IMG/VR virus record: IMGVR_UViG_3300046652_000006
Coordinates: 1 to 44,022 of that record
Origin: a virus
Length of the DNA: 44,022 nucleotides
Strand: one strand, 5' to 3'
The translations under genes and the position numbers were made by a program. The notes below the pieces were generated by a model. The model was given only the letters and a program-made list of their open reading frames with translations. It did no database searches and was not told where the DNA came from. Position 1 is the stretch's first letter; every line of letters starts with the position of its first letter. This document shows, piece after piece, positions 1 through 44,022 of the stretch.

Positions 1-381
1 CCCGTCTGCCCACATGACGTACTGCGTAATAGTCTGTCCAGACTGCGCCCCGATCTGCATGAAACTGACTGGGTTTGAAGTCGAAAGTCCCGATTTCAGG
101 ACATTGGATGCGTTGGTCTGGTAAACCTTCCCGCCCGCCGCAAACAGATGAAAATAAGACCCATTGCTAAGTCTGAATTGGAATCCGCCCTGAACTCTTG
201 CGGGTAGTGGCGTTCCAAGAAACAAAGCGTTCCCTCCGCGCTTGCTTAATCCATTCTCATGAAAATTAAGGTTTTTCGATGGTAGGACCAGAGAGGTGAC
301 GGGAAGCAGTTCTTGACTCCTGTCATCTCTCAGGCCGGTTTGGAGGAATGGGCTGCGAAGAATTTGGCCGCTGTATCCCAT
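1..381 (-). CDS. Tail hub-like protein, variant copy, truncated by window edge
   Basis: This is the N-terminal ~126 residues of a second, diverged copy of the 518-residue protein at 41147-42703. It begins MGYSGQILRSPFLQ, and most differences from the full copy are silent or conservative. The ATG at 381-379 shares its A with the TGA of the upstream gene (TGATG), the same arrangement as in the full copy. The gene runs off the left edge of the window. Because the window end rejoins the sequence at 991, this fragment is best read as part of a side arm from a related strain and not as a second working gene in the same genome. Confidence 0.85.
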   Translation of the reverse strand, partial: MGYSGQILRSPFLQTGLRDDRSQELLPVTSLVLPSKNLNFHENGLSKRGGNALFLGTPLPARVQGGFQFRLSNGSYFHLFAAGGKVYQTNASNVLKSGLSTSNPVSFMQIGAQSGQTITQYVMWADG

Positions 382-671
382 CAGGAATCCTTTACCTGGC
401 CGGCTTTCTGAAATCTATCTTCATCGGCATCAGAGACTTTCTTCCATGTCGATGAAGGCGTTCCTCTATTCTGGAACCCAGCGTTGCCCGTAGTCGTCCG
501 TCTCCGCCAGAAGAAGAAGTAATCCGTCACAGGCGTAATCCCAGGGTAAAGGTTAAGAATATGGGACCGGGATGCCACACCAATCGTTCCTGATGGGATA
601 GGCATCCCGGTCCCTCGGGCACCTTTCCCGAAATCAATGGCCGATCGACGACGTTCGGGGGTGTCTATCAC
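381..671 (-). CDS. Small tail-associated protein, variant without endonuclease insertion
   Basis: A 96-residue basic protein of unrecognised family, rich in Arg and Gly, with conserved blocks FGKGARGTGMPIPSGTIG and YPGITPVTDYFFFWRRRT. It is the diverged twin of the 97-residue protein at 42703-42996. The start is GTG at 671, overlapping the stop of the 313-residue gene as GTGA, which implies coupled translation; the right-hand copy starts with ATG because an endonuclease gene separates the pair there. Its place between the adaptor-side gene and the hub suggests a structural or assembly role (inference from position only). Confidence 0.8.
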   Translation of the reverse strand: MIDTPERRRSAIDFGKGARGTGMPIPSGTIGVASRSHILNLYPGITPVTDYFFFWRRRTTTGNAGFQNRGTPSSTWKKVSDADEDRFQKAGQVKDS

Positions 672-1609
672 GTTAGTTGACCTTTTGTGTAAACCGAGCC
701 GTCGTCGCTGAGAGCCCCTGTCGCAATCACCGTCCCCGCATTGTTCTTGATCTTCTCCTGGCTCGAAGTCGCCGTATGCTCATTGCGAAGGCTCATGTAA
801 GAAAGCATGAGTGCCTGTTGGATTGTAGGAGTGGCACTCGGAACTCCCGAAAGTTCTGACATCGTATCGGTGCTAAGAGCCGAACGAATTTGCGTCAGAA
901 CCGAAGCTAAAGCTGTCGCACCTAGAGCATTGACCGTTCCAATCGTCACTCCGGTCTGGCTGGCTCCAAGATTGACAGTAGAAACCGTTTGATCAAAATT
1001 GCTTATCTTCCCTGTTAGAGGCAATGCCGCATAAATGGCCTTTAGGTCAACTGCCGCGCTATCAGCCGTTACATGACCCGTCATAGTCTCATTCCATACC
1101 GCTGCGGCAATCGTGGCGGCATCGGGACCGCCGCCGCCAGCATCGGTTATCGCTTCAAGCGAGTCCGTTGTTTGGCTAAAGGTCTGCCCTGCGTTCTTGT
1201 TCATAATCAGGTCAAAAAGGCTTCCGATAGTGGGGGGAGTACCGCCTGCGGTATTCTTGGCGAGCTTATCGAGGAGGTAGGTTACCAGGACTTTCCCTAT
1301 CCCCTGTTCTTCAATTGTGCCATCGAAATATATTTGGCTGTTTCCGATAGGGGGATCTCCGACTACCGGAGTCCCAGTTGGGTTCTGATATATGATGAGC
1401 GTGTATTTACCAGCAAGAAGGTAGGACGGGAACACACCCTTGTAGTAACCCGTAGCACCCTCTTCAGCGACTGTATTCACATAAGTTGCCCAGTTGCTGC
1501 CATTGTAGACTTCCGTGGATACCCCATTGGCAATCTTCCCCGTTGAATCGTGAATGACGATGTAGAGGGCCTGTCCAGACTGACTGACGATTTCTGTAAT
1601 AGCAGCCAT
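668..1609 (-). CDS. Virion/tail-associated protein with N-terminal Ig-like domain
   Basis: 313 residues. The N-terminal ~100 residues have the alternating polar/aromatic strand pattern of a small beta-sandwich (blocks ALYIVIHDSTGKI, YYKGVFPSYLLAGKYTLIIY, IYFDG) often seen in phage tail-region proteins. The rest is Ala/Thr/Ser-rich with short helices and repeated 'ALxTDT/TIGTVNALGATAL' texture. It lies two bases after the adaptor stop and is GTGA-coupled to the next gene. A second copy of its C-terminal ~140 residues is at 43597-44022, nearly identical in protein but clearly diverged in DNA outside the last 103 bases. A structural role is inferred from position; no catalytic motif is visible. 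Confidence 0.75.
   Translation of the reverse strand: MAAITEIVSQSGQALYIVIHDSTGKIANGVSTEVYNGSNWATYVNTVAEEGATGYYKGVFPSYLLAGKYTLIIYQNPTGTPVVGDPPIGNSQIYFDGTIEEQGIGKVLVTYLLDKLAKNTAGGTPPTIGSLFDLIMNKNAGQTFSQTTDSLEAITDAGGGGPDAATIAAAVWNETMTGHVTADSAAVDLKAIYAALPLTGKISNFDQTVSTVNLGASQTGVTIGTVNALGATALASVLTQIRSALSTDTMSELSGVPSATPTIQQALMLSYMSLRNEHTATSSQEKIKNNAGTVIATGALSDDGSVYTKGQLT
991..1093. repeat. Left copy of 103-base exact terminal match
   Basis: Bases 991-1093 are identical to the last 103 bases of the window (43920-44022). The base before it differs (t at 990, g at 43919), and divergence of the two arms continues upstream of that point. This is the signature of a circular or terminally redundant molecule whose assembly closed on itself, leaving 1-990 as a variant side arm. 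Confidence 0.9.
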
Positions 1610-13542: not shown

Positions 13543-13998
13543 TTACTTATTATCCGTCTCAGTTGATCCGTTACTATCGAGCGTAGTTAGCAGCGCTTGC
13601 TTGCGCTCTTGCGCTTGCGATACTAGGCGCTCTATGTTCATGGCTATGTCAACAACGTTGACGATAGGCCTATTGAGTCCTTCCATGTCACGCGCTGCTT
13701 GCACGGCAAGAGATGCCATGCCCATAAGCTGGTAGGCGCTACTAACCTCTAGTTTTTCAAGCGTGATATTCTCTTGTGAGGCACGCGCAAGGCCATAGAA
13801 ATTCCCTACCAGTTGCTTTTTACATTGCTCAACATCTAGTAAATTTGATGGGCATTGCCGTTTTATGGCAATGACTGTAGGCTGTGACATGCCGGAAGCC
13901 TTAGCGACAGCGCGAATAGATAGGCCAGATTCGAATAGAGATTTAACCCAAACTTGTTTAGCATAAGGTGTTCTGCTCAAGCTTGTAGTCTGAGGCAC
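13543..13998 (-). CDS. Helix-turn-helix protein, probable small terminase subunit
   Basis: 151 residues from a GTG at 13998; an in-frame TAA lies just upstream, and no clear ribosome site is visible. Residues ~18-48 form a helix-turn-helix (WVKSLFESGLSIRAVAKASG, then MSQPTVIAIKRQ), followed by long helices (QLMGMASLAVQAARDMEGLN, NIERLVSQAQERKQALLTTL) suited to oligomerisation. As first gene of the late block and on the same strand as the large terminase, a small terminase that recognises the packaging site is the best reading. A transcription regulator is the alternative. Confidence 0.6.
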   Translation of the reverse strand: MPQTTSLSRTPYAKQVWVKSLFESGLSIRAVAKASGMSQPTVIAIKRQCPSNLLDVEQCKKQLVGNFYGLARASQENITLEKLEVSSAYQLMGMASLAVQAARDMEGLNRPIVNVVDIAMNIERLVSQAQERKQALLTTLDSNGSTETDNK

Positions 13999-14110
13999 GC
14001 CATAGATTTAACATATATTGATTGAAAATGCAAATGGCCCATATATTGCACTGTAGGATTCGATTCTAGGCCCATAAAATTTTCTGGCCGATGTTTTATA
14101 CCTGTAACCT

Positions 14111-14442
14111 TATCACATGCGTAGGTTACAAAACAGGCTACAAATCTTCCGTGTATGTTCCTTATGTATCCTATGTATCCTATATGTACTCTATATAGTA
14201 AATAGATAGTGATAGTGTACCGTATGCCCCCCCCCCTTGTAAATACTATATGCCCCCCCTTTTTTATGGCTACATGAGGCTACAGGCTACAAATTTATAT
14301 CACATGATATGCCCTAAAGTCCCGACTACCCCATTAGACCCATGAGCATTACCCCGAAAGGCCCATGTCTGGGTCTAAAGGCTAAATCGTATCACATGAC
14401 TAAATAGTTGTTGACATGTATCATATGTTCTGTTATCATATG
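14111..14442 (+). repeat. Five direct copies of TATCAyATG (putative operators)
   Basis: TATCACATG occurs at 14111-14119, 14298-14306 and 14390-14398; TATCATATG occurs at 14419-14427 and 14434-14442. All are on the plus strand and all lie in the intergenic gap. The last two sit in the spacer and on the -10 element of the early promoter, as repressor sites often do. The second lies in the near-palindrome ATATCACATGATAT. Confidence 0.6.
14411..14439 (+). promoter_or_regulatory. Sigma70-type promoter of the early operon
   Basis: TTGACA at 14411-14416, a 17-base spacer, then TATCAT at 14434-14439. The first ATG of the operon follows about 50 bases later behind GAGGGGGA. The match to consensus is strong, and two TATCATATG words overlap the spacer and -10, suggesting repression. 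Confidence 0.75.
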
Positions 14443-14488
14443 AGTAGTCAGATAGTGACAGTCAGATGATAATGAGGGGGAAATAAAA

Positions 14489-14689
14489 ATGAATAATAAT
14501 TGTCGCGGTCATAGATCAGGGCATGGAGCGAATAAATATAAGTGTTCATCGTTAGCCTGTTTATCAGGTAAGCAATGGATGAAATATTTAGAGCGCGAAC
14601 TAAAAAAAACAGAGCACGGGATGGATGGACTCTGTCAGGTCAATGGGCAATGGCGTAGCGAACATCTGGACATTTCACAGGCTGCCTAA
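14489..14689 (+). CDS. First early-operon protein, unknown function
   Basis: 66 residues, basic, Asn/Lys-rich N-terminus (MNNNCRGHRSGHGANKYKCS) with two or three Cys and a helical middle (KQWMKYLERELKKTEHGMDG). GAGGGGGA precedes the ATG. It is the first gene behind the strong promoter, so it should be the earliest product. A small host-takeover protein is a guess from position. Confidence 0.55.
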   Translation: MNNNCRGHRSGHGANKYKCSSLACLSGKQWMKYLERELKKTEHGMDGLCQVNGQWRSEHLDISQAA

Positions 14690-16246: not shown

Positions 16247-16620
16247 ACGAAAAAGAAGCGACGCCCCACAGCCCGACGCCGACGCCGTGGACCGCCGAAG
16301 GAATGGCTGTTTATGCAGGTGACACAAAAATAGCCCAAGGATTAGACAAGGGCGCAAGAGAATTGTGGTGCAGTCACATCGTCAGAGATGAGCTTGAGCA
16401 GTTTCTCCCCGTCGAAAAAGAAGCGATAGCCAACGCCGCCTACATCGTCCGCGCCGTCAACGCCTACGCGCCGATGGTGGAAGCGTTGAAAGAAGCCCAG
16501 AAAATTATTGGCACAGCCCGTCAGTATTTCCCGAAGTCAATCAAAAATGCCGACACATTCAGCCTTGAAAACACATGCGCCGGAATCGGTAAAGCTATTG
16601 TACTCGCGGAGGGTGACTAA
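16240..16620 (+). CDS. HTPTPW-type phage protein, paralogue 1
   Basis: 126 residues. The N-terminus is HSPTPTPWTAEGMAVYAGD and the middle is NAAYIVRAVNAYAPMVEAL. This combination, a TPTPW start, a short beta part and an 'A.YIV.AVN....MVEAL' helix, recurs in many phages without known function. A related gene follows at 16948-17280, and the two share 65 identical bases over the helix. Low-complexity Ala/Thr codons and GC-rich base use set this segment apart from its neighbours. Confidence 0.6.
   Translation: MLNEKEATPHSPTPTPWTAEGMAVYAGDTKIAQGLDKGARELWCSHIVRDELEQFLPVEKEAIANAAYIVRAVNAYAPMVEALKEAQKIIGTARQYFPKSIKNADTFSLENTCAGIGKAIVLAEGD
16428..16492 (+). repeat. 65-base exact direct repeat, copy 1
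   Basis: Bases 16428-16492 are identical to 17109-17173, in the same reading frame of two neighbouring paralogous genes, encoding the block from NAAYIV through MVEALK. Complete identity including third codon positions points to recent copying or gene conversion. Confidence 0.9.
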
Positions 16621-16947: not shown

Positions 16948-17280
16948 ATGGAACACGATTGCGATTGCGATGGAACCCGAATAAAGGCAAAGAAAATAAC
17001 CCACACGCCGACGCCGTGGCATATTGCAAATAATATGGACGTTGATATTTACGGTGACACAGGTTTCAGAATTGCCGTTATGAAAGGCGGTGAAATCATG
17101 CGTGACGAAGCCAACGCCGCCTACATCGTCCGCGCCGTCAACGCCTACGCGCCGATGGTGGAAGCGTTGAAAGCCGCCGTTAAACTAATGGAGAGTAAAG
17201 AGACGGCATGGGCATTTCATGAGGATGTATTTATCCAGATGAGAGAAGCCCTCCGCGCCGCCGAAGGGAAGGGGGAGTAA
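16948..17280 (+). CDS. HTPTPW-type phage protein, paralogue 2
   Basis: 110 residues: an acidic-Cys start (MEHDCDCDGTR), THTPTPWHIANNMDVDIYGD, then the same NAAYIVRAVNAYAP helix as the gene at 16240 and a C-terminal helical tail. GGGAGGT precedes the ATG. The family is common in phages with no assigned role. The two paralogues differ in the middle and at the C-terminus, so only the shared helix and the TPTPW start look conserved. Confidence 0.6.
   Translation: MEHDCDCDGTRIKAKKITHTPTPWHIANNMDVDIYGDTGFRIAVMKGGEIMRDEANAAYIVRAVNAYAPMVEALKAAVKLMESKETAWAFHEDVFIQMREALRAAEGKGE
17109..17173 (+). repeat. 65-base exact direct repeat, copy 2
   Basis: Identical to 16428-16492, 681 bases downstream, in the second HTPTPW-type gene. 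Confidence 0.9.
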
Positions 17281-25966: not shown

Positions 25967-26310
25967 ACAAAGACCAATTCGCCTATTTGAATGAAAACAT
26001 CGTCTCCCTGGAATCCGAGCGCGACCGTTGGTACAAACAGGCGCATGAATCAGAGCAACGGTATTTGAACGCATCGGCTGAGTGCGACCGATTGAAGGCG
26101 GAGTTGGAAAAGCTGAGTTGCCCACATTGTGGATCAGATGTGGACGGAAAGAATTGGAAGGCCCTTGCCGAGAAGATGCGGGAGGCGTCACGCATAGGCA
26201 TGGAGTGGGTTTTACTTGGCAATCATGATGAGGCCCCAGGATGGATAGAAGCACGAGATTCGTTCGAGAGAGCCCTCGCCTTGTTCGACGCGAAAGGGGA
26301 TATGAAATGA
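25963..26310 (+). CDS. Coiled-coil protein with CPHCG knuckle
   Basis: 115 residues. MNKDQFAYLNENIVSLESER and RYLNASAECDRLKAELEKLS are coiled coil, then CPHCGSDVDGKNW (zinc knuckle half), then a helical C-terminal half with WVLLGNHDEAPGW and FERALALFDAKGD. It resembles the coiled-coil proteins at 15515 and 26878. Function unknown. Confidence 0.5.
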   Translation: MNKDQFAYLNENIVSLESERDRWYKQAHESEQRYLNASAECDRLKAELEKLSCPHCGSDVDGKNWKALAEKMREASRIGMEWVLLGNHDEAPGWIEARDSFERALALFDAKGDMK

Positions 26311-26756
26311 CGACTATTGAGCAACGGTTTTTTGCGAAAGTAATTAAAACTCCAAAGTGTTGGTCTTGGATTGGGGCAAAAGGGAGTAACGGCTACGGTC
26401 AGATGCAGATGGGTCCAAGAAAACAGCAAGCGCATCGCATTGCGTATGAATTGTTTGTAGGACCTATCCCCGAAGGTTTAACGATTGACCATATTTGCCG
26501 ATTCAAGGACTGTGTAAATCCTTCCCATTTGCGAACCATGACGATGCTCGAAAACGTAATGGATGGATGCGTCAATGCCAAGAAAGATCATTGTCCGCAA
26601 GGCCACAAATACGACGAAACCAACACGATACGCTACCGGACGTTCCGCTATTGCCGGGAGTGTAAACGCGCGAAGGATAAGGCGCATCATCTGAAATATC
26701 GTGATCGGATTCTTGCCCGAAAAAGAGAAGCCTGGCGCAAGGCGGCGGGGAAATGA
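26307..26756 (+). CDS. HNH homing-type endonuclease
   Basis: 149 residues from the ATG at 26307 (ATGA overlap). KCWSWIGAKGSNGYGQMQMG, HRIAYELFVGPIPEGLTIDH and ICRFKDCVNPSHLRTMTML are the conserved H-N-H block (D61-H62, N71-P-S-H74), and a C-terminal Cys-His ribbon CPQGHKYDETNT...YCREC follows. It nicks or cuts DNA at a specific site and probably spreads by homing. Codon-level overlaps with both neighbours show it is now part of the operon. Confidence 0.9.
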   Translation: MTTIEQRFFAKVIKTPKCWSWIGAKGSNGYGQMQMGPRKQQAHRIAYELFVGPIPEGLTIDHICRFKDCVNPSHLRTMTMLENVMDGCVNAKKDHCPQGHKYDETNTIRYRTFRYCRECKRAKDKAHHLKYRDRILARKREAWRKAAGK

Positions 26757-31296: not shown

Positions 31297-34041
31297 TCAT
31301 GGGACGTATATCGGCATTTTTAGCAATGAACCACCGCCCGTCGTGCAGATCGTTTGCTCCGCTCCTGAACTTCCATACATCACCAAATTAGCCGATGTTC
31401 CTCCACTACAACGATAGAGAGCGGTTCCACTCCCTATGGGTGTGCTTACAAATACAGCACTCGTAACCGACATAGAGGCATTGATGACCATAAATTGGTC
31501 AGTTGGAGCACTTGCCATTTTCCCGTACATAAGAGACTGGGCTTGTTCAGTCGCTTCATCACCTCTGTCAACATTGTTGACCATGAAAACATTATCAGAT
31601 GTCTGATAAAATCCAGACTTGTTTCCTAAAAATATTCCTCCTGAACCCGTCGCGGATTGCCCAGCCTGATTTCCTAGGAAAACGCTGTTGTTTCCAAATG
31701 CCGCGTATCCTGCTAAGTGTCCGACGGAAACATTGTAGCTCCCAGTTCCGTAAGCGCCCGCTTGATCTCCTACATAAACATCGTAAGATGCGTTGGGGAT
31801 GTAAGCGCCAGTGTAGTATCCGATGAAGGTATCATATGTGCAACCACCGTTTGCACAGCCATTCCCAGAGTAATCACCATATGCGGAAATGTAAGCCCCA
31901 GGACTAGGGTTATTTATAAACGAAAGATGTGATCCAGCTAAGGTATTTCCGGTCCCTACGTTATCTGTGTAAAAATTCGTCGAAACAGCAGGCCCCGTAG
32001 TCGTAGCGACATCAGCTATCCATGAAAACGGAGAACTTCCGCCGCCACCAGATCCGCAAGCGCTCCCTGTAACAGATAGGCGTCCTCCAGTTGTCGTCTG
32101 GACACATTGACCGCTCGTGAGACCTGAAACAGTTAAGGCTGTGAACGTCGAAGGCTTAGTGTTTGTCCAGGACTGTTGCGCTGTCCAGGTGCTCGTTGTT
32201 GCTATGATTTGATCAAGTGTTTGAGCCGCCGAATATTGTTGAGAATAATCACCGAATGTTACAGGAATACCCGTAGGCATGACAATACCGCTATCGCCAG
32301 ACATAGCAAGAGTTCCAGTTCCTGCTGTATTTACTAATGTTATTGCTCCACCGCCGTAACAATTCCCAGATTGAAATATATCTCCAAGGAACATCGTCCC
32401 TTGGCTGATACTCCCACAATCTCCGAAAAGACCGAGAGTTGAATTAGGGAAAACAATATTCGGAGCATTGAGGGCCGTAATCGTAGCACTTGAAATAATT
32501 GAATTTGTTGCAGAAAATATATTCGTCGTAGAGCTGTAGTTGAGGTTGGCGGTATCGACGGCCATGGTCGAAGAAGGGGAACCAAAGGGAATGGAAGTTG
32601 GTTCGAGAACGACTGAACCACCAGCCGCCGATATGGTGATCTGCGCCGTTGTTCCGCCAACGGAAGCGGTCGTGATCGTGACGCCAGACCCCGCAATGAA
32701 ACTGGCTGTGATTGTGGGACTTGTGACGCGGACATTGTTTCCCATGATTTCGAGAGATAAAGAACCGCCGCCCCCTGTCGGAGTTGACCACTGGGGACGA
32801 ACCCCGGCCCCTTTAGAAGTAAATACCTGCCCATCAGTCCCAGCGCTTCCACTAGCAGAAAGGTAAACGTCGCCCACTCCTAAATACAGAGCGTGGTTTG
32901 TAAGTCCGCTAGAAGCCGTTCCATAAAGACCAATGTTTTGACCACCAGTTGCGTAGGCTGACCCATAAAGACCGTAGACTGTTCCAGTGCTCTGAATAGC
33001 GCCAGAGACGGTTCCTTGTACGCCTGTCAGTCCTTGGACTTTACCACCAGAAGCTACAGCATTTCCCGACAAGGCCGTTGCGATTGACGTATTCCCGGTA
33101 TTCGTTGTAGTGAATGATGCCCCCACCGGGTTGGCTAACCCGGTTGTATTGCTCTGCACGATCGCGCTATTGAAGTTCCATTGGCCGCGAGCGGTCGGGG
33201 AGTCTCCGAATAGATCATATTTTTGAACTTGACCAAAACTGTCTGTTTTTAGAAAAGGGGAATTGTAGTAAGCTGCTGGAAGAGTAAATCCGTTCATGTA
33301 ATATACTCTTGACCCTGAAATATCCATAGCGGCAAGATTATTACTTCCTAACCATAAATCACCGCTAGAGGTTCCTGGATCAGCCATCAGAAGAACATCG
33401 CCTGGCAGAGCGGCAGTGGCGTAATACGTGTCACCATCACCTCCGACATTAACGATATTAAATCTTGAAATTGCTGGAGCTGAGAAATCTGGTGGACCGT
33501 AACTAAAAAACGATGTCAAGAAGGGAGAACTATAATCATTCGATGTGAACATGGGCCCTTGCGAATAATTAGAGGCGTTTACGTTGCTGTTGGTCCTCAG
33601 AGGAGGAGCATATCCATAAAAGGAATCCCCATTGTATACGGTGGTAGTTCCCGTAATAACCAAACTTTTCGTAGTCGATGAATAATTAAGATTATCGGTA
33701 TCGACGGCCATGGTCGATGAGGGGGATCCGAATCCAATGGCGGTGGGAGAAAGAGTGACGGCCCCAGCGCTTGAAGACAAGATCCCAAGATCAACCCAGG
33801 TATAGGTACTCCCTTGAAGTTGGTAGGTATGGCTATTGTCCTTTTGAAAGACAATCATGCCGTTGTAGACCTGGGTCTCCGTCATAGCCAGGCGAGCCGT
33901 CGAATCATCCGCTACGAGTTTGGCATCTAAGGGCCTTCCGCTGTTCTCTTGGAAGTTTGAGGATAACGGGATATCTCCGGTATCAGCCAAGAGTGATGCC
34001 GGGACCAAGAGAGACGCGAGAATGACGAGTTTTTTAATCAT
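31297..34041 (-). CDS. Secreted fibre/adhesin-like protein, 914 residues
   Basis: N-terminal signal peptide (MIKKLVILASLLVPASLLA, then D). The middle contains two copies of a GFGSPSSTMAVDTDNLNYSS module (about residues 105 and 483) and a module SLEIMGNNVRVTSPT to TTAQITISAAGG (~432) shared with the next gene upstream. The C-terminal ~220 residues have repeated G-N/V-x-LG-x-x-AG blocks (YDVYVGDQAGAYGTGSYNVS, VFLGNQAGQSATGSGGIFLG, NKSGFYQT), like the head repeats of YadA-type trimeric adhesins. Probably a trimeric appendage that contacts the host or another surface. TAATG-coupled to the gene upstream. Confidence 0.72.
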   Translation of the reverse strand: MIKKLVILASLLVPASLLADTGDIPLSSNFQENSGRPLDAKLVADDSTARLAMTETQVYNGMIVFQKDNSHTYQLQGSTYTWVDLGILSSSAGAVTLSPTAIGFGSPSSTMAVDTDNLNYSSTTKSLVITGTTTVYNGDSFYGYAPPLRTNSNVNASNYSQGPMFTSNDYSSPFLTSFFSYGPPDFSAPAISRFNIVNVGGDGDTYYATAALPGDVLLMADPGTSSGDLWLGSNNLAAMDISGSRVYYMNGFTLPAAYYNSPFLKTDSFGQVQKYDLFGDSPTARGQWNFNSAIVQSNTTGLANPVGASFTTTNTGNTSIATALSGNAVASGGKVQGLTGVQGTVSGAIQSTGTVYGLYGSAYATGGQNIGLYGTASSGLTNHALYLGVGDVYLSASGSAGTDGQVFTSKGAGVRPQWSTPTGGGGSLSLEIMGNNVRVTSPTITASFIAGSGVTITTASVGGTTAQITISAAGGSVVLEPTSIPFGSPSSTMAVDTANLNYSSTTNIFSATNSIISSATITALNAPNIVFPNSTLGLFGDCGSISQGTMFLGDIFQSGNCYGGGAITLVNTAGTGTLAMSGDSGIVMPTGIPVTFGDYSQQYSAAQTLDQIIATTSTWTAQQSWTNTKPSTFTALTVSGLTSGQCVQTTTGGRLSVTGSACGSGGGGSSPFSWIADVATTTGPAVSTNFYTDNVGTGNTLAGSHLSFINNPSPGAYISAYGDYSGNGCANGGCTYDTFIGYYTGAYIPNASYDVYVGDQAGAYGTGSYNVSVGHLAGYAAFGNNSVFLGNQAGQSATGSGGIFLGNKSGFYQTSDNVFMVNNVDRGDEATEQAQSLMYGKMASAPTDQFMVINASMSVTSAVFVSTPIGSGTALYRCSGGTSANLVMYGSSGAEQTICTTGGGSLLKMPIYVP
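32619..32764 (-). repeat. Shared fibre module, copy in 914-residue gene
   Basis: Encodes SLEIMGNNVRVTSPTITASF and GSGVTITTASVGGTTAQITI. The same module is in the upstream gene at about 34752-34895, with clear DNA similarity. It reads like a joint or shaft piece moved between fibre genes. Confidence 0.6.
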
Positions 34042-35135
34042 TAGAATTTATACGTGTTCGTGAAACTTGTTTGGGATGTCGGAGTATTGAACTCATAGAC
34101 GTAATAATTCTGCGTCGTCGAATCAAGCATAGTCATGGTTCCACTCCTTTTCGTGTAGCCGGAAATCGTCTCAAAATTGCTCGGATCAAGAATGGAAGTA
34201 AGATTCCCGGCGCTCTGAGGGTAAGCAAAATAATAGACCTGACTTGATGGGCTTGTGGTCGTTGCTGTGTTCGCGGGAGTTTGGACGAGCTTTGTTAACC
34301 CTTGGACAGAAGCAAAAGAAAGATTTTGCGCTCCGACTCCATAATAGAAGGGATAGACAAACGTGAAGGTAACGGAATTGGATGTGGTGTTGCTTGTCCC
34401 ATCGCCGTCCACTGCGGTATAGGCTGATGTAGTAGAGCGCGTATCCGTATCGGTATAGACTTCCGTTCCACCCGTTGATACAGGCGTTGAGCTACTCTTA
34501 ATGACCGTCCCGTTTAACTTCCATTGAACAATCGTAATCGGGCTCGATTTTTCGACCGTATAGGCCGAAAGGACGACGTTTGTCATGGTCGTCCCAAGTT
34601 CTTTGACGATCGCACCTGGGCTGGTTCCGAGAGTCACAGCAGGAGCTGTGTATTGAAAATCAAAAATCTGGTCTAATGCAGCGCTTGATGTTGCGACATT
34701 AACGGCTTCGCTAAACCGTCCAGAATAACCAGTCCGAACATAGGCGCTTGAGCCTCCTGTCGCCGATATGGTCATCTGAGCCGTCGTCCCGCCTACGGCT
34801 GAGGTCGTGATCGTTACGCCAGACCCCGCCAGAAAGCTTACGGTTGCGGTGGGGCTCGTTATACGAACTGAGTTACCCATCACTTCCAGAGAAGGAGTTC
34901 CACCACCGCCACCTCCGCATGGTGTTGCTGCCGATGTTAATGATCCCCCTGGACCAGCTTGAACACACATTCCATTCGTAAGATCCCTAACAGAGCCGCT
35001 CGAAACCAATAGCGCTGGACGAGACGCTATCGTGCTTGCGTTTACGAGATAATTTCCGGCTGGCGGCGTAACAGCGGCACCATAAACTGATCCCGCCAGT
35101 CCAAGGAATGCGATGGCTTTAAGGAATCTATTCAC
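34041..35135 (-). CDS. Secreted fibre-like protein, 364 residues
   Basis: GTG start at 35135, chosen because VNRFLKAIAFLGLAGSVYGA is a signal peptide; an upstream ATG at 35180 would add 15 basic residues. The module SLEVMGNSVRITSPTATVSF and TTAQMTISATGGS is shared with the 914-residue protein. The C-terminal ~220 residues are beta-rich, with ITIVQWKLNGTVIKSSSTPV and a late YYVYEFNTPTSQTSFTNTYK of the kind seen at fibre tips. Stop and next ATG overlap (TAATG). Confidence 0.65.
   Translation of the reverse strand: MNRFLKAIAFLGLAGSVYGAAVTPPAGNYLVNASTIASRPALLVSSGSVRDLTNGMCVQAGPGGSLTSAATPCGGGGGGTPSLEVMGNSVRITSPTATVSFLAGSGVTITTSAVGGTTAQMTISATGGSSAYVRTGYSGRFSEAVNVATSSAALDQIFDFQYTAPAVTLGTSPGAIVKELGTTMTNVVLSAYTVEKSSPITIVQWKLNGTVIKSSSTPVSTGGTEVYTDTDTRSTTSAYTAVDGDGTSNTTSNSVTFTFVYPFYYGVGAQNLSFASVQGLTKLVQTPANTATTTSPSSQVYYFAYPQSAGNLTSILDPSNFETISGYTKRSGTMTMLDSTTQNYYVYEFNTPTSQTSFTNTYKF
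34752..34895 (-). repeat. Shared fibre module, copy in 364-residue gene
   Basis: Matches 32619-32764 in protein and DNA. It sits between the signal-peptide region and the beta-rich tip of the shorter gene, which supports a modular shaft. Confidence 0.6.
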
Positions 35136-41150: not shown

Positions 41151-42703
41151 ATGCGAACTCCCCTTGGGCTATATAGGTATATTAGCTCTGACAGAAAAAA
41201 TGGTTGCCCTGTCGCATTGTTAATAAACTCTCCCTGGAAATCTCGCCCATAATACCCAACATCAATGGTCGCCGGCACGAGGCTATCTCCGGCGAATGTA
41301 TCGACATCGTAATGGGCACTATCATACTTGGCTCCACTTCCAGTAAGAGTGAAAGTCGCGTCAGTCCGTCTAACTCCATCAATATAGGATTGCATCGTAA
41401 AATCTACTCCGCTGGATGCGCTTCCCCTGAATACGATCCCCTTGAAATGCTTCCAAGCGCGAGGGGCTCCGAGGTCTTGTCGGATAGTTCTGATCCTGGT
41501 CCTATAAGCGTTCCCGTTATCATCGTCGTCAGATTGCTCTAGCTTCCAAATCCTTCCAGAGTAATCCCCCGTCCACAACTGCCAATCGCCAGGGCCATTT
41601 CTCACTTCCCATACCGCCGAAGCATCGTACCCGCTATCAAAATCCTCGTTATCGTGGATGATCCACGCTTGAGAAGGGTCTTTGTCTACAAAATAGGTAA
41701 GGGCGATGTTATTGTTTGATCCACCCTCCTGCATAAACCATTTTATCGCTCTTAGTTTGCGATCATAGGCGCAACAAAAGTTCTCGATATTGGAGAGCGT
41801 GATATTGTCTCGAATGAATTTGTCGATATACGCAGGACGAGCAATGGGGGAAGCCGAATATGAACCCGTAGCAACGATCCCTTGCAGATTGTAGATCGTC
41901 GAATCCTCGGCCATGATAAAAAGGTTGTTATTTGCCTTGCAGACGAGCCGCCAATGAGCAGCGCCGCCATCCCATAGAGATTCATGGTATCCCCAATTTT
42001 GGCTATTGGAGTCGGTGTCGTCTATGAGATAAGTTTTCGTCTTATCCCAAACAAATAGCTGACCGCCAAGATCAATGCCACCGACAAGCCCGCCCTTAGA
42101 ATAAACTGGAATCTGAATGACATCGGCATCTCCGAAGTTCCAAGGCTCTGCAATCTTAGATGCCCATACACTGTCTTTCGTAATCGCCCATGCCCTGATA
42201 TTGGCGTTCCTAGCGTGATTGATTATTTGGAATGGCATTCCACTCGTTGATCCCCAGGATGTTGCTGTAGTCACCGCCGTTGAAGTCGGCGCGGACCCAT
42301 CCCAATACTGAGGTGCGATTTGTCCATCAGCCCACATGACATATTGAGTGATCGTCTGTCCTGACTGGGCGCCGATCTGCATGAATGAAATTGGATTAGA
42401 CGTTGATTGGCCCGACTTCAAGACATTTGATGCGTTCGTATGATAGACCTTCCCATTTGAAGCAAATAGGTGGAAGTAAGATCCGTTCGACAACCTAAAT
42501 TGGAACCCAGACTGGACACGCGCCGGCAATGGCGTCCCTAGGAATAATGCGTTGCCTCCCCGCTTCGATAACCCATTCTCATGAAAATTGAGGTTCTTCG
42601 ATGGCAGGACCAGAGAGGTGACTGGAAGCAGTTCTTGACTCCGGTCATCTCTCAGGCCGGTCTGGAGGAATGGACTTCGGAGAACTTGACCGCTATAGGC
42701 CAT
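41147..42703 (-). CDS. Tail hub-like protein (P22 gp10-like), full copy
   Basis: 518 residues, full version of the fragment at 1-381. MAYSGQVLRSPFLQTGLRDD then SLVLPSKNLNFHENGLSKRG is the typical start of phage stabilisation/hub proteins. WD-like beta blades follow: FMQIGAQSGQTITQYVMWAD, IAEPWNFGDADVIQIPVYSK, YLIDDTDSNSQNWGYHESLW, QAWIIHDNEDFDSGYDASAV. Proteins with this layout close the tail under the adaptor. Overlaps the neighbouring genes by 1-4 bases on both sides. Confidence 0.68.
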   Translation of the reverse strand: MAYSGQVLRSPFLQTGLRDDRSQELLPVTSLVLPSKNLNFHENGLSKRGGNALFLGTPLPARVQSGFQFRLSNGSYFHLFASNGKVYHTNASNVLKSGQSTSNPISFMQIGAQSGQTITQYVMWADGQIAPQYWDGSAPTSTAVTTATSWGSTSGMPFQIINHARNANIRAWAITKDSVWASKIAEPWNFGDADVIQIPVYSKGGLVGGIDLGGQLFVWDKTKTYLIDDTDSNSQNWGYHESLWDGGAAHWRLVCKANNNLFIMAEDSTIYNLQGIVATGSYSASPIARPAYIDKFIRDNITLSNIENFCCAYDRKLRAIKWFMQEGGSNNNIALTYFVDKDPSQAWIIHDNEDFDSGYDASAVWEVRNGPGDWQLWTGDYSGRIWKLEQSDDDDNGNAYRTRIRTIRQDLGAPRAWKHFKGIVFRGSASSGVDFTMQSYIDGVRRTDATFTLTGSGAKYDSAHYDVDTFAGDSLVPATIDVGYYGRDFQGEFINNATGQPFFLSELIYLYSPRGVRI

Positions 42704-42996
42704 CAGGAATCCTTCGCATCATTGGCTTTCACGAAAATATCTTCATCGGCGTCCTGTGCTTTCTTCCATGTTGATGACGGAGTAGAACGCCCCTGAAATC
42801 CGGTACTCCCTGTCGTCGTTCTCCTTCTCCAGAAGAAGAAGTAATCCGTCACAGGGGTAATGCCGGGATAGAGGTTCATAATGTGGGACCGCGAGGCCAC
42901 GCCAATCGTTCCAGATGGGATAGGCATCCCAGTCCCTCGGGGTCCTTTCCCGAAATCAATGGCCGATCGGCGGCGCTCAGCGGTATCTATTGCCAT
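42703..42996 (-). CDS. Small tail-associated protein, copy beside HNH gene
   Basis: 97 residues; twin of the protein at 381-671 with high protein identity (FGKGPRGTGMPIPSGTIG, PGITPVTDYFFFWRRRT). Here it starts with ATG at 42996, because the endonuclease gene now separates it from the 313-residue gene with which the left copy is coupled. TGATG with the hub gene. Structural role by position only. Confidence 0.8.
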   Translation of the reverse strand: MAIDTAERRRSAIDFGKGPRGTGMPIPSGTIGVASRSHIMNLYPGITPVTDYFFFWRRRTTTGSTGFQGRSTPSSTWKKAQDADEDIFVKANDAKDS

Positions 42997-43025
42997 ATTG
43001 GTGTATGTTGTGCCATAATATATCC

Positions 43026-43619
43026 ATGATTACTAAATGGCCTTGCCTCAAGAAAATGCCTTACCCATGCACTTGCGGTTGCGGTGGATTTGCTCAAAGA
43101 AATAAATACGAAGTTAAGCGTTTCCCTGTATTTATTCGAGGGCACCAATTCAGAGGAAAATTTAATTTTAACTGGAATGGAGGCGTTCGTATAAGTCAGG
43201 GATATCGACTCATTCTTTCTCCTGGACATCCCAATGCAGACCAGTCTGGATATGTTAGGGAGCATTGCCTTGTGATGAGCGCCTATCTCAAACGTCCTCT
43301 TGATAAAACTGAAATTGTGCATCACATCAATGGTGTCAAAACCGACAATCGCATAGAAAATCTTGTGATTACCAATCGCGCTGAACATGCGTCTCATCAT
43401 CATAAAGGAGTCTTGAAGCCAAATAGTCTTAAAAATATTAGAGGTCATACTTCTAAAGAAATGAAAAAAATCTGGAGAACGTCTCGAAAACACCATCGGC
43501 AAAAGCCAATCGTATGTAGGAATTGTAGTGGATCGTTCTTCTCCAAAAAACGAAGACTTAAGCAAATTTATTGTTCCCATCATTGCTATATCCTTTTCAA
43601 GAAAACTGACCTTTTGTAA
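43026..43619 (+). CDS. Free-standing HNH endonuclease inserted between late genes
   Basis: 197 residues if started at ATG 43026; ATG 43056 (MPYPCTCGCGGFAQRNK) or TTG 42990 are alternatives, none with a good ribosome site. It carries an N-terminal CTCGCGG knuckle, an HNH core REHCLVMSAYLKRPLDKTEI then VHHINGVKTDNRIENLVI, and a C-terminal ribbon VCRNCSGSFF...YCSHHCY. It is the only rightward gene in the late block and is absent from the left-hand variant. Its last 23 bases overlap the end of the 313-residue gene copy. Looks like a recent homing insertion. Confidence 0.9.
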   Translation: MITKWPCLKKMPYPCTCGCGGFAQRNKYEVKRFPVFIRGHQFRGKFNFNWNGGVRISQGYRLILSPGHPNADQSGYVREHCLVMSAYLKRPLDKTEIVHHINGVKTDNRIENLVITNRAEHASHHHKGVLKPNSLKNIRGHTSKEMKKIWRTSRKHHRQKPIVCRNCSGSFFSKKRRLKQIYCSHHCYILFKKTDLL

Positions 43620-44022
43620 AAACATTTCCGTCATCCGAAAGAGCAGATGTAGCAATCACCGTTCCCGCGTTGTTTTTAATCTTCTCCTGGCTCGATGTAG
43701 CCGTATGTTCGTTGCGAAGACTCATGTAGGAAAGCATGAGTGCCTGTTGGATTGTAGGAGTGGCACTCGGAACTCCCGTAAGCTCTGACATCGTATCGGT
43801 GCTAAGGGCCGTACGAATCTGAGTCAGAACCGAAGCTAAAGCCGTCGTGCCGAGAGCATTGACCGTTCCAATCGTTACGCCAGTCTGACTGGCCCCGAGA
43901 TTGACCGTCGATACCGTCGGATCAAAATTGCTTATCTTCCCTGTTAGAGGCAATGCCGCATAAATGGCCTTTAGGTCAACTGCCGCGCTATCAGCCGTTA
44001 CATGACCCGTCATAGTCTCATT
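43597..44022 (-). CDS. Virion/tail-associated protein, C-terminal part, variant copy
   Basis: The C-terminal ~140 residues of a protein nearly identical to residues ~173-313 of the gene at 668-1609; it runs off the right edge. Changes are mild (DPTVSTVNL against DQTVSTVNL, SALSDDGNVFTKGQFS against GALSDDGSVYTKGQLT). Beyond 43920 the DNA is identical to the left copy, so past the window edge it is expected to continue as the left sequence. Confidence 0.85.
   Translation of the reverse strand, partial: NETMTGHVTADSAAVDLKAIYAALPLTGKISNFDPTVSTVNLGASQTGVTIGTVNALGTTALASVLTQIRTALSTDTMSELTGVPSATPTIQQALMLSYMSLRNEHTATSSQEKIKNNAGTVIATSALSDDGNVFTKGQFS
43920..44022. repeat. Right copy of 103-base exact terminal match
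   Basis: Identical to 991-1093. Together they allow circular closure with a genome length of 42,929 bases (43920 minus 991). Confidence 0.9.

Follow-up and report, generated by a model that had tools for sequence, protein, structure and literature searches.

An antisense HNH endonuclease gene at a phage gene junction and an open host-strand frame that may bridge it

Introduction

How can a selfish gene settle in a tightly coupled operon? This question is raised by one gene junction in the IMG/VR virus record IMGVR_UViG_3300046652_000006, whose 44,022 bases were analyzed whole (referred to here as the window) and include genes for capsid, portal, and tail-collar proteins. Near one end of the window two neighboring genes overlap, and near the other end homologues of the same two genes are parted by an HNH endonuclease gene on the opposite strand. 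Phage homing genes are located near essential genes, according to the available text of one survey (PMC10448857).

The reading favored here, and held to be probable, is that a free-standing HNH gene was inserted antisense in one of two strains, spread by homing, and is spanned by an open frame on the host strand that acts as a bridge. The parts of this reading differ in strength and are graded below where each is discussed.

Results

Two probable strains at the ends of one contig

The two arms of the window pair without gaps on either side of the insert. Positions 2-668 align with 42324-42990 at 78% identity, and 678-1093 with 43607-44022 at 89%, the final 103 nt being identical. Genes are truncated at both contig ends (the 518-aa and 313-aa genes). 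When the proteins of the two arms are aligned, the product of the 96/97-aa gene is identical at 81 of 97 positions, the C-terminus of the 313-aa protein at 129 of 139, and the N-terminus of the 518-aa protein at 119 of 127. These identities point to strains rather than alleles in one genome, and the two ends are most simply seen as two co-assembled strains. The original prediction had treated the arms as an occupied and an empty allele; a difference of 11-22% speaks against this and fits two co-assembled strains. On a plain reading, the source would be a circularly closed phage of ~43 kb, with the assembly running past its start into the second strain.

An empty and an occupied junction

The junction is made up of the following features.

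668-1609, minus strand: 313-aa gene of the empty (left) arm, an open reading frame
381-671, minus strand: 96-aa gene of the empty arm, with a GTG start that overlaps the 313-aa stop
668-677: insertion point in the empty site, the last aligned base being 668 and the next 678
43597-44022, minus strand: 3' part of the 313-aa gene homologue, the upstream neighbor in the occupied arm, truncated by the contig end
42997-43596: inserted block of 600 bp from the 313-homologue stop to the 97-aa start, defined by arm alignment, junction table, and G+C
42703-42996, minus strand: 97-aa gene, the downstream neighbor in the occupied arm, without an SD-like motif of its own

Insertion of the HNH gene at this junction is nearly certain. 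Arm alignment and junction table agree that the gene is present in one junction copy and missing from the other, as had been predicted. The GTGA coupling described for the left arm is also there, as a 4-nt overlap, though the downstream gene encodes 96 residues and not the 97 it was given. In the right arm, the 313-homologue stop (43597-43599, minus strand) and the 97-aa ATG (42994-42996, minus strand) are 600 bp apart, which bears out the claim that about 600 bases with an antisense HNH gene part the two genes. The insert is bordered directly by the stop codon of the one gene and the start codon of the other. Its edges thus match the boundary between the two genes; a mismatch there had been named as grounds for refutation and is not seen. 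The HNH frame had been placed correctly at 42990-43619. As the inserted block, these coordinates give way to 42997-43596, since the HNH gene ends with 23 nt that overlap the 313-homologue at its 3' end, on the opposite strand. The insert has a G+C content of 39% against 49% for the contig, and only 0.3% of all 600-bp windows are lower.

A search for the empty site in other phages had been proposed. It returned eight further IMG/VR contigs that share this gene order (L004, L005, L006, L008, L009, L010, L018, and L019, with L006 and L009 near-identical at the junction), and all eight are empty, the two genes overlapping by 1 nt (TAATG) or 4 nt (GTGA, ATGA). With the left arm, this makes one occupied and nine empty copies, a ratio that says little about mobility. 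Eight of the nine empty copies (all except L010) carry an SD-like motif within the upstream gene, ahead of the 97-type start; the right arm has none. The idea that the 97-residue gene had gained its ATG is not upheld, as the start is ATG in five of the eight contigs (L004, L008, L010, L018, and L019), and the outgroups L004, L008, and L019 begin ATG-GC(A/G)-AT(A/C/T), as the right arm does. The GTG of the left arm, with one codon fewer, is more likely the derived state.

The empty allele had also been expected to show the target sequence around 660-680. The insertion point does fall in that range, within 668-677. Free-standing homing endonucleases often cut away from their own insertion point, as described in the available part of PMC2988022. 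Given such distant cutting, and since the left junction differs from that of the presumed ancestor of the right strain, the left allele marks the insertion point but is at most a candidate target for cleavage.

On the 313 side, the flanks of the two arms are 70% identical over the first 50 nt and 84-96% beyond; no clear co-conversion tract is seen in these few, diverged arms. A location inside a group I/II intron or an intein was rejected, as no Rfam match above threshold was found at the insert and the neighboring genes are intact on both sides. A transposable element was also rejected: terminal inverted repeats and a target-site duplication were sought, and the edges show repeats at chance level only.

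Elsewhere in the window, the capsid protein is distantly related to many podovirus-like records. A capsid homologue 91% identical to it, with an internal stop, is found in a metagenome contig (L004:2792-3691). None of 50,697 phage records holds a relative of the 518-aa neighbor. A direct repeat of ~69 bp (16424-16492 and 17106-17173, 98.6% identical) lies between two small-gene stretches, and an 88-bp repeat (32614-32701 and 34749-34835, 83% identical) is common to the 914-aa and 379-aa genes. The sole other stretch that matches the insert in AT-richness is 13889-14677, around which the minus strand is without long genes.

The HNH gene and its product

Two features belong to the HNH gene itself.

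43056-43619, plus strand: HNH endonuclease gene, 187 aa from its likeliest start (ATG 43056), recognized by Pfam and PHROG matches, homologue alignment, and an AlphaFold core
42990-43019, plus strand: weak promoter-like sequence upstream of the HNH start, TTGCCA-18-CATAAT, in which TG precedes the second hexamer

The longest frame of the gene runs from TTG 42990 to 43619 (plus strand, 209 aa); the homologues suggest ATG 43056 as the start instead. The protein matches Pfam HNH_3 (E=2.7e-9, 37 bits against a cut-off of 24.8) and has 17 HNH-type matches from other PHROGs, the best at 5.5e-17. In homologue alignments, the conserved HH...N...DN..ENL...H is kept as H89, H90, N92, D97, N98, N102, and H111. 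Read by eye, the sequence shows CxCGCG in its N-terminal part and resembles a zinc ribbon in its C-terminal part. The AlphaFold model has a core of residues ~41-110 with pLDDT near 90, and its first structural match, non-significant at E=0.75, is PDB 1u3e, which we take to be I-HmuI, the HNH homing endonuclease of Bacillus phage SPO1. A sequence search of the PDB gave zinc-finger background only. No close HNH relatives were found by single-sequence search of IMG/VR; relatives were reached by alignment-based searches only. Promoter-like sites in the region number two, against 1.8 expected by chance.

The gene is probably that of a free-standing homing endonuclease, and homing, which would include cleavage, is likely. 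As a homing case, an HNH gene with an empty partner is of an ordinary, known kind. The window holds a second HNH_3 gene at 26241-26756 (E=1.5e-15), with closed antisense frames, the longest of 92 codons.

A stop-free frame on the host strand

The strand opposite the HNH gene, which is that of the neighboring genes, has a long open frame.

42987-43583, minus strand: host-strand "bridge" frame of 198 codons, with AAGGA at 43595-43591, ATG at 43583-43581, and a TAG stop at 42989-42987

This frame spans the whole insert on the minus strand, and its TAG overlaps the start region of the 97-aa gene. It is aligned codon to codon with the HNH gene, which must therefore avoid TTA, CTA, and TCA throughout. 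None of the three occurs in its 210 codons, 15 of them for Leu and 13 for Ser. For the 187-aa core, the chance of a stop-free host strand is 0.003 with the codon usage of the contig and 5e-5 from base composition, for a frame that was spotted in the window after the fact. The remaining two antisense frames are closed by 12 and 16 stops. The minus-strand frame was rejected as a real protein gene, with no family match and no fold (mean pLDDT 33.5). With a product of this kind, translation alone, and not the product, could matter. Whether the bridge is a translatable frame that preserves translation of the operon is an evenly balanced question on the sequence evidence.

Survey of HNH relatives

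Three scans, giving the discovery, second viral, and cellular-genome sets, yielded 200 loci with HNH relatives (L100-L299). Including the window, 198 of 201 loci were usable, three having no clean HNH stretch. Deduplication at 70% identity dropped 21 near-duplicates and left 177 loci, or 176 without the window. Loci were classed by the strands of the neighboring genes, which were assigned from the longest open frames and not from annotation, so that some assignments are wrong.

Codons whose complements are stops (TTA, CTA, and TCA) are depleted according to orientation. Among the 176 deduplicated relatives, HNH genes antisense to both neighbors have 94 of these codons against 215 expected (n=37), those at mixed-orientation loci 194 against 320 (n=56), and those at co-directional loci 533 against 525 (n=79). 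In the discovery, second viral, and cellular-genome sets, in that order, aligned stops seen/expected are 35/112.5 (n=17), 12/26.1 (n=5), and 47/76.7 (n=15) for the antisense class; 54/85.8 (n=17), 40/67.3 (n=13), and 100/167.6 (n=26) for the mixed class; and 167/187.3 (n=29), 149/138.7 (n=20), and 217/197.3 (n=30) for the co-directional class. The effect of orientation (permutation p <=5e-5) holds within G+C quartiles and without the frame-2-open loci.

Other A-ending codons serve as controls and are mildly low in every class. Their pooled ratio is 0.80 in the antisense class, against 0.44 for TTA/CTA/TCA; it is 0.92 in the co-directional class, against 1.01, and 0.87 in the mixed class. Compared with their own neighbor genes, HNH genes at antisense loci have a log ratio of -0.62 (95% -1.04 to -0.23), while the co-directional (+0.10) and mixed (-0.19, -0.39 to 0.01) classes show no clear difference. 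The neighbor genes at antisense loci are themselves somewhat low in TTA/CTA/TCA (0.81).

A fully open host-strand frame, in any of the three frames, is found at 8 of 17 antisense and 2 of 29 co-directional loci in the discovery set (Fisher p 0.0026) and at 3 of 5 and 0 of 20 in the second viral set (Fisher p 0.0043). In the cellular-genome set the counts are 5 of 15 and 4 of 30, which is not significant (p=0.135). In a first-pass count, an opposite reading frame covered 90% or more of the HNH frame at 16 of 23 antisense loci, compared with 2 of 40 co-directional ones; this count was drawn from 84 loci with duplicates, the window, and three intein-chosen loci included, and the stricter deduplicated count is preferred.

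The aligned frame is open at 20 antisense or mixed loci, of which 17 were scored for end points (two have no downstream gene call and one was dropped). The bridge stop lies within 25 nt of the ATG or GTG of the next gene at 12 of these 17, the window being scored as a miss because the 518-aa gene was taken as its downstream gene; the other two frames reach 4 of 34. Clear AT-rich examples are L102 (AGGAGG, and TGATG at the upstream stop), L146, L158, and L225. At L158 the flanking genes encode a tail terminator and a protein with an Ig domain, and L102 has a LamG protein as neighbor.

An origin of bridge frames as a copy of the start of the downstream gene was rejected, being seen at 2 of 18 scored loci (L146 and L249) and not in the window, with two further loci outside the count. 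At L146 and L249 themselves, the beginning of the bridge frame closely repeats the N-terminus encoded by the downstream gene (scores of 52 and 84, reached by 0 of 200 shuffles), as though insertion had duplicated the start of that gene. At L011:2998-3411 (Caudovirales GX15bay), the deposited annotation has a hypothetical protein opposite the HNH reading frame.

Antisense HNH genes inside inteins

Antisense HNH genes were also observed within intein-coding stretches. Five lie in terminase large-subunit genes (L036:4099-6702, L080:4309-6675, L026:1331-3775, L137:1481-3643, and L171:1340-3862), one lies in a clamp-loader-like AAA gene (L148:1613-3436), and one is found in a named isolate, Pectobacterium phage Sabo, again in the terminase large-subunit gene (L300:1032-3296). 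Pfam Intein_splicing matches range from 2.2e-8 (L036) to 0.034 (L026), all below Pfam's own cut-off. In L026, L036, L080, L137, L148, and L171, a frame other than the codon-aligned one is open on the host strand. No description of an antisense HNH gene, or of an intein with an antisense endonuclease, was found in the literature searched, which excludes most subscription journals.

Discussion

Proposed mechanism

The following sequence of events is proposed. An HNH gene of ~600 bp has landed against the direction of transcription in the structural module, exactly between the 313-aa stop and the 97-aa start. It would spread when the HNH protein cuts an empty copy in a co-infecting phage and the break is repaired from the occupied copy. 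The SD-like motif that most empty copies have at the end of the 313-aa gene is cut off from the 97-aa gene by the insert. In its place, the 198-codon host-strand frame offers an SD and an ATG of its own immediately downstream of the 313 stop, and its stop overlaps the 97-aa start. This could let ribosomes that translate the operon mRNA cross the insert and re-initiate, so that coupling is kept and polarity avoided.

In general form, homing HNH genes antisense in phage operons would be selected for a stop-free, codon-aligned complementary strand, which acts as a translated bridge from upstream stop to downstream start and dodges the cost of lost coupling and polarity. In another frame, the same logic would permit antisense HNH genes within intein-coding stretches. 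This general form is given as much credence as doubt. It covers orientation dependence, frame specificity, and end points together.

Comparison with known systems

T4-type mob genes such as mobE resemble the present gene. In the available text of PMC2988022, they are HNH genes without intron or intein, intergenic between conserved genes, and patchy in distribution, and they spread by intronless homing. The homing genes of T4 are co-oriented with their neighbors except for segD, the only antisense one, as given in the same portion of that source; here the HNH gene is antisense and the host strand is open. Like the present gene, T4 segD is an antisense free-standing homing-type gene between essential structural genes (23 and 24). 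It differs in being of the GIY-YIG family, and its host-strand frames are closed, with 9, 12, and 26 stops. I-HmuI differs in being intron-encoded (available part of PMC2988022).

The nearest published idea found to the bridge is the ShiLan domain, as far as the available text of PMC11855218 describes it. There too, HNH DNA keeps a host gene frame open and no intron or intein was found; the domain differs in lying on the same strand in another frame, hidden within one mycobacteriophage methylase gene. None of the words reverse, antisense, and opposite occurs in that text.

Alternative explanations

The open host-strand frame could be a by-product of codon usage or base skew with no role, which is a substantial if doubtful alternative. 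The antisense class is, after all, also mildly low in other A-ending codons taken together (0.80) and lower still in GTA (0.42) and ATA (0.62), its neighbor genes share part of the deficit, and the T4 segD host strand manages without an open frame. Against this, the depletion is about twice that of the control codons, depends on orientation, and affects the codon-aligned frame only, no deficit being seen in the remaining two frames of the antisense class; skew would also leave the arrival of 12 of 17 open frames at the start of the next gene to be explained. A different doubt concerns the gene itself, which might be non-homing cargo in one strain, e.g., a packaging-associated HNH gene or a moron. 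Some phage HNH proteins do assist packaging (available text of PMC11855218), and cleavage and transfer are here presumed. Cargo is nevertheless unlikely for a gene that is absent from all nine other junction copies, AT-rich, antisense, and placed in the structural module away from the terminase, with its nearest relatives in many unrelated contexts, inteins included.

Two further explanations concern the assembly. The contig ends are composite, with arms 78-89% identical and an exact 103-nt match at the end, and the HNH block could in principle have been joined to the phage by mistake. Such a chimera is very unlikely, as the right-arm flanks are the same gene pair and the breaks fall exactly at stop and start codons, which a random join would miss. 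A true linear genome with two diverged copies of the region would account for both copies being on one contig; it is more improbable still, with ends that cut within the 518-aa and 313-aa genes and an exact 103-nt overlap that fits wrap-around assembly. Insertion of a free-standing HNH gene in one of two strains, with its host strand open as a bridge, is the reading carried forward.

Significance

If the bridge is true, host-strand frames of this kind could be called as hypothetical genes, instead of or besides the HNH gene, which is a warning for annotation. Such loci would also make up a large group of sense/antisense coding pairs whose existence has a simple functional explanation. Finally, a true bridge would be an answer to how a selfish gene enters a tightly coupled operon without harming its host.
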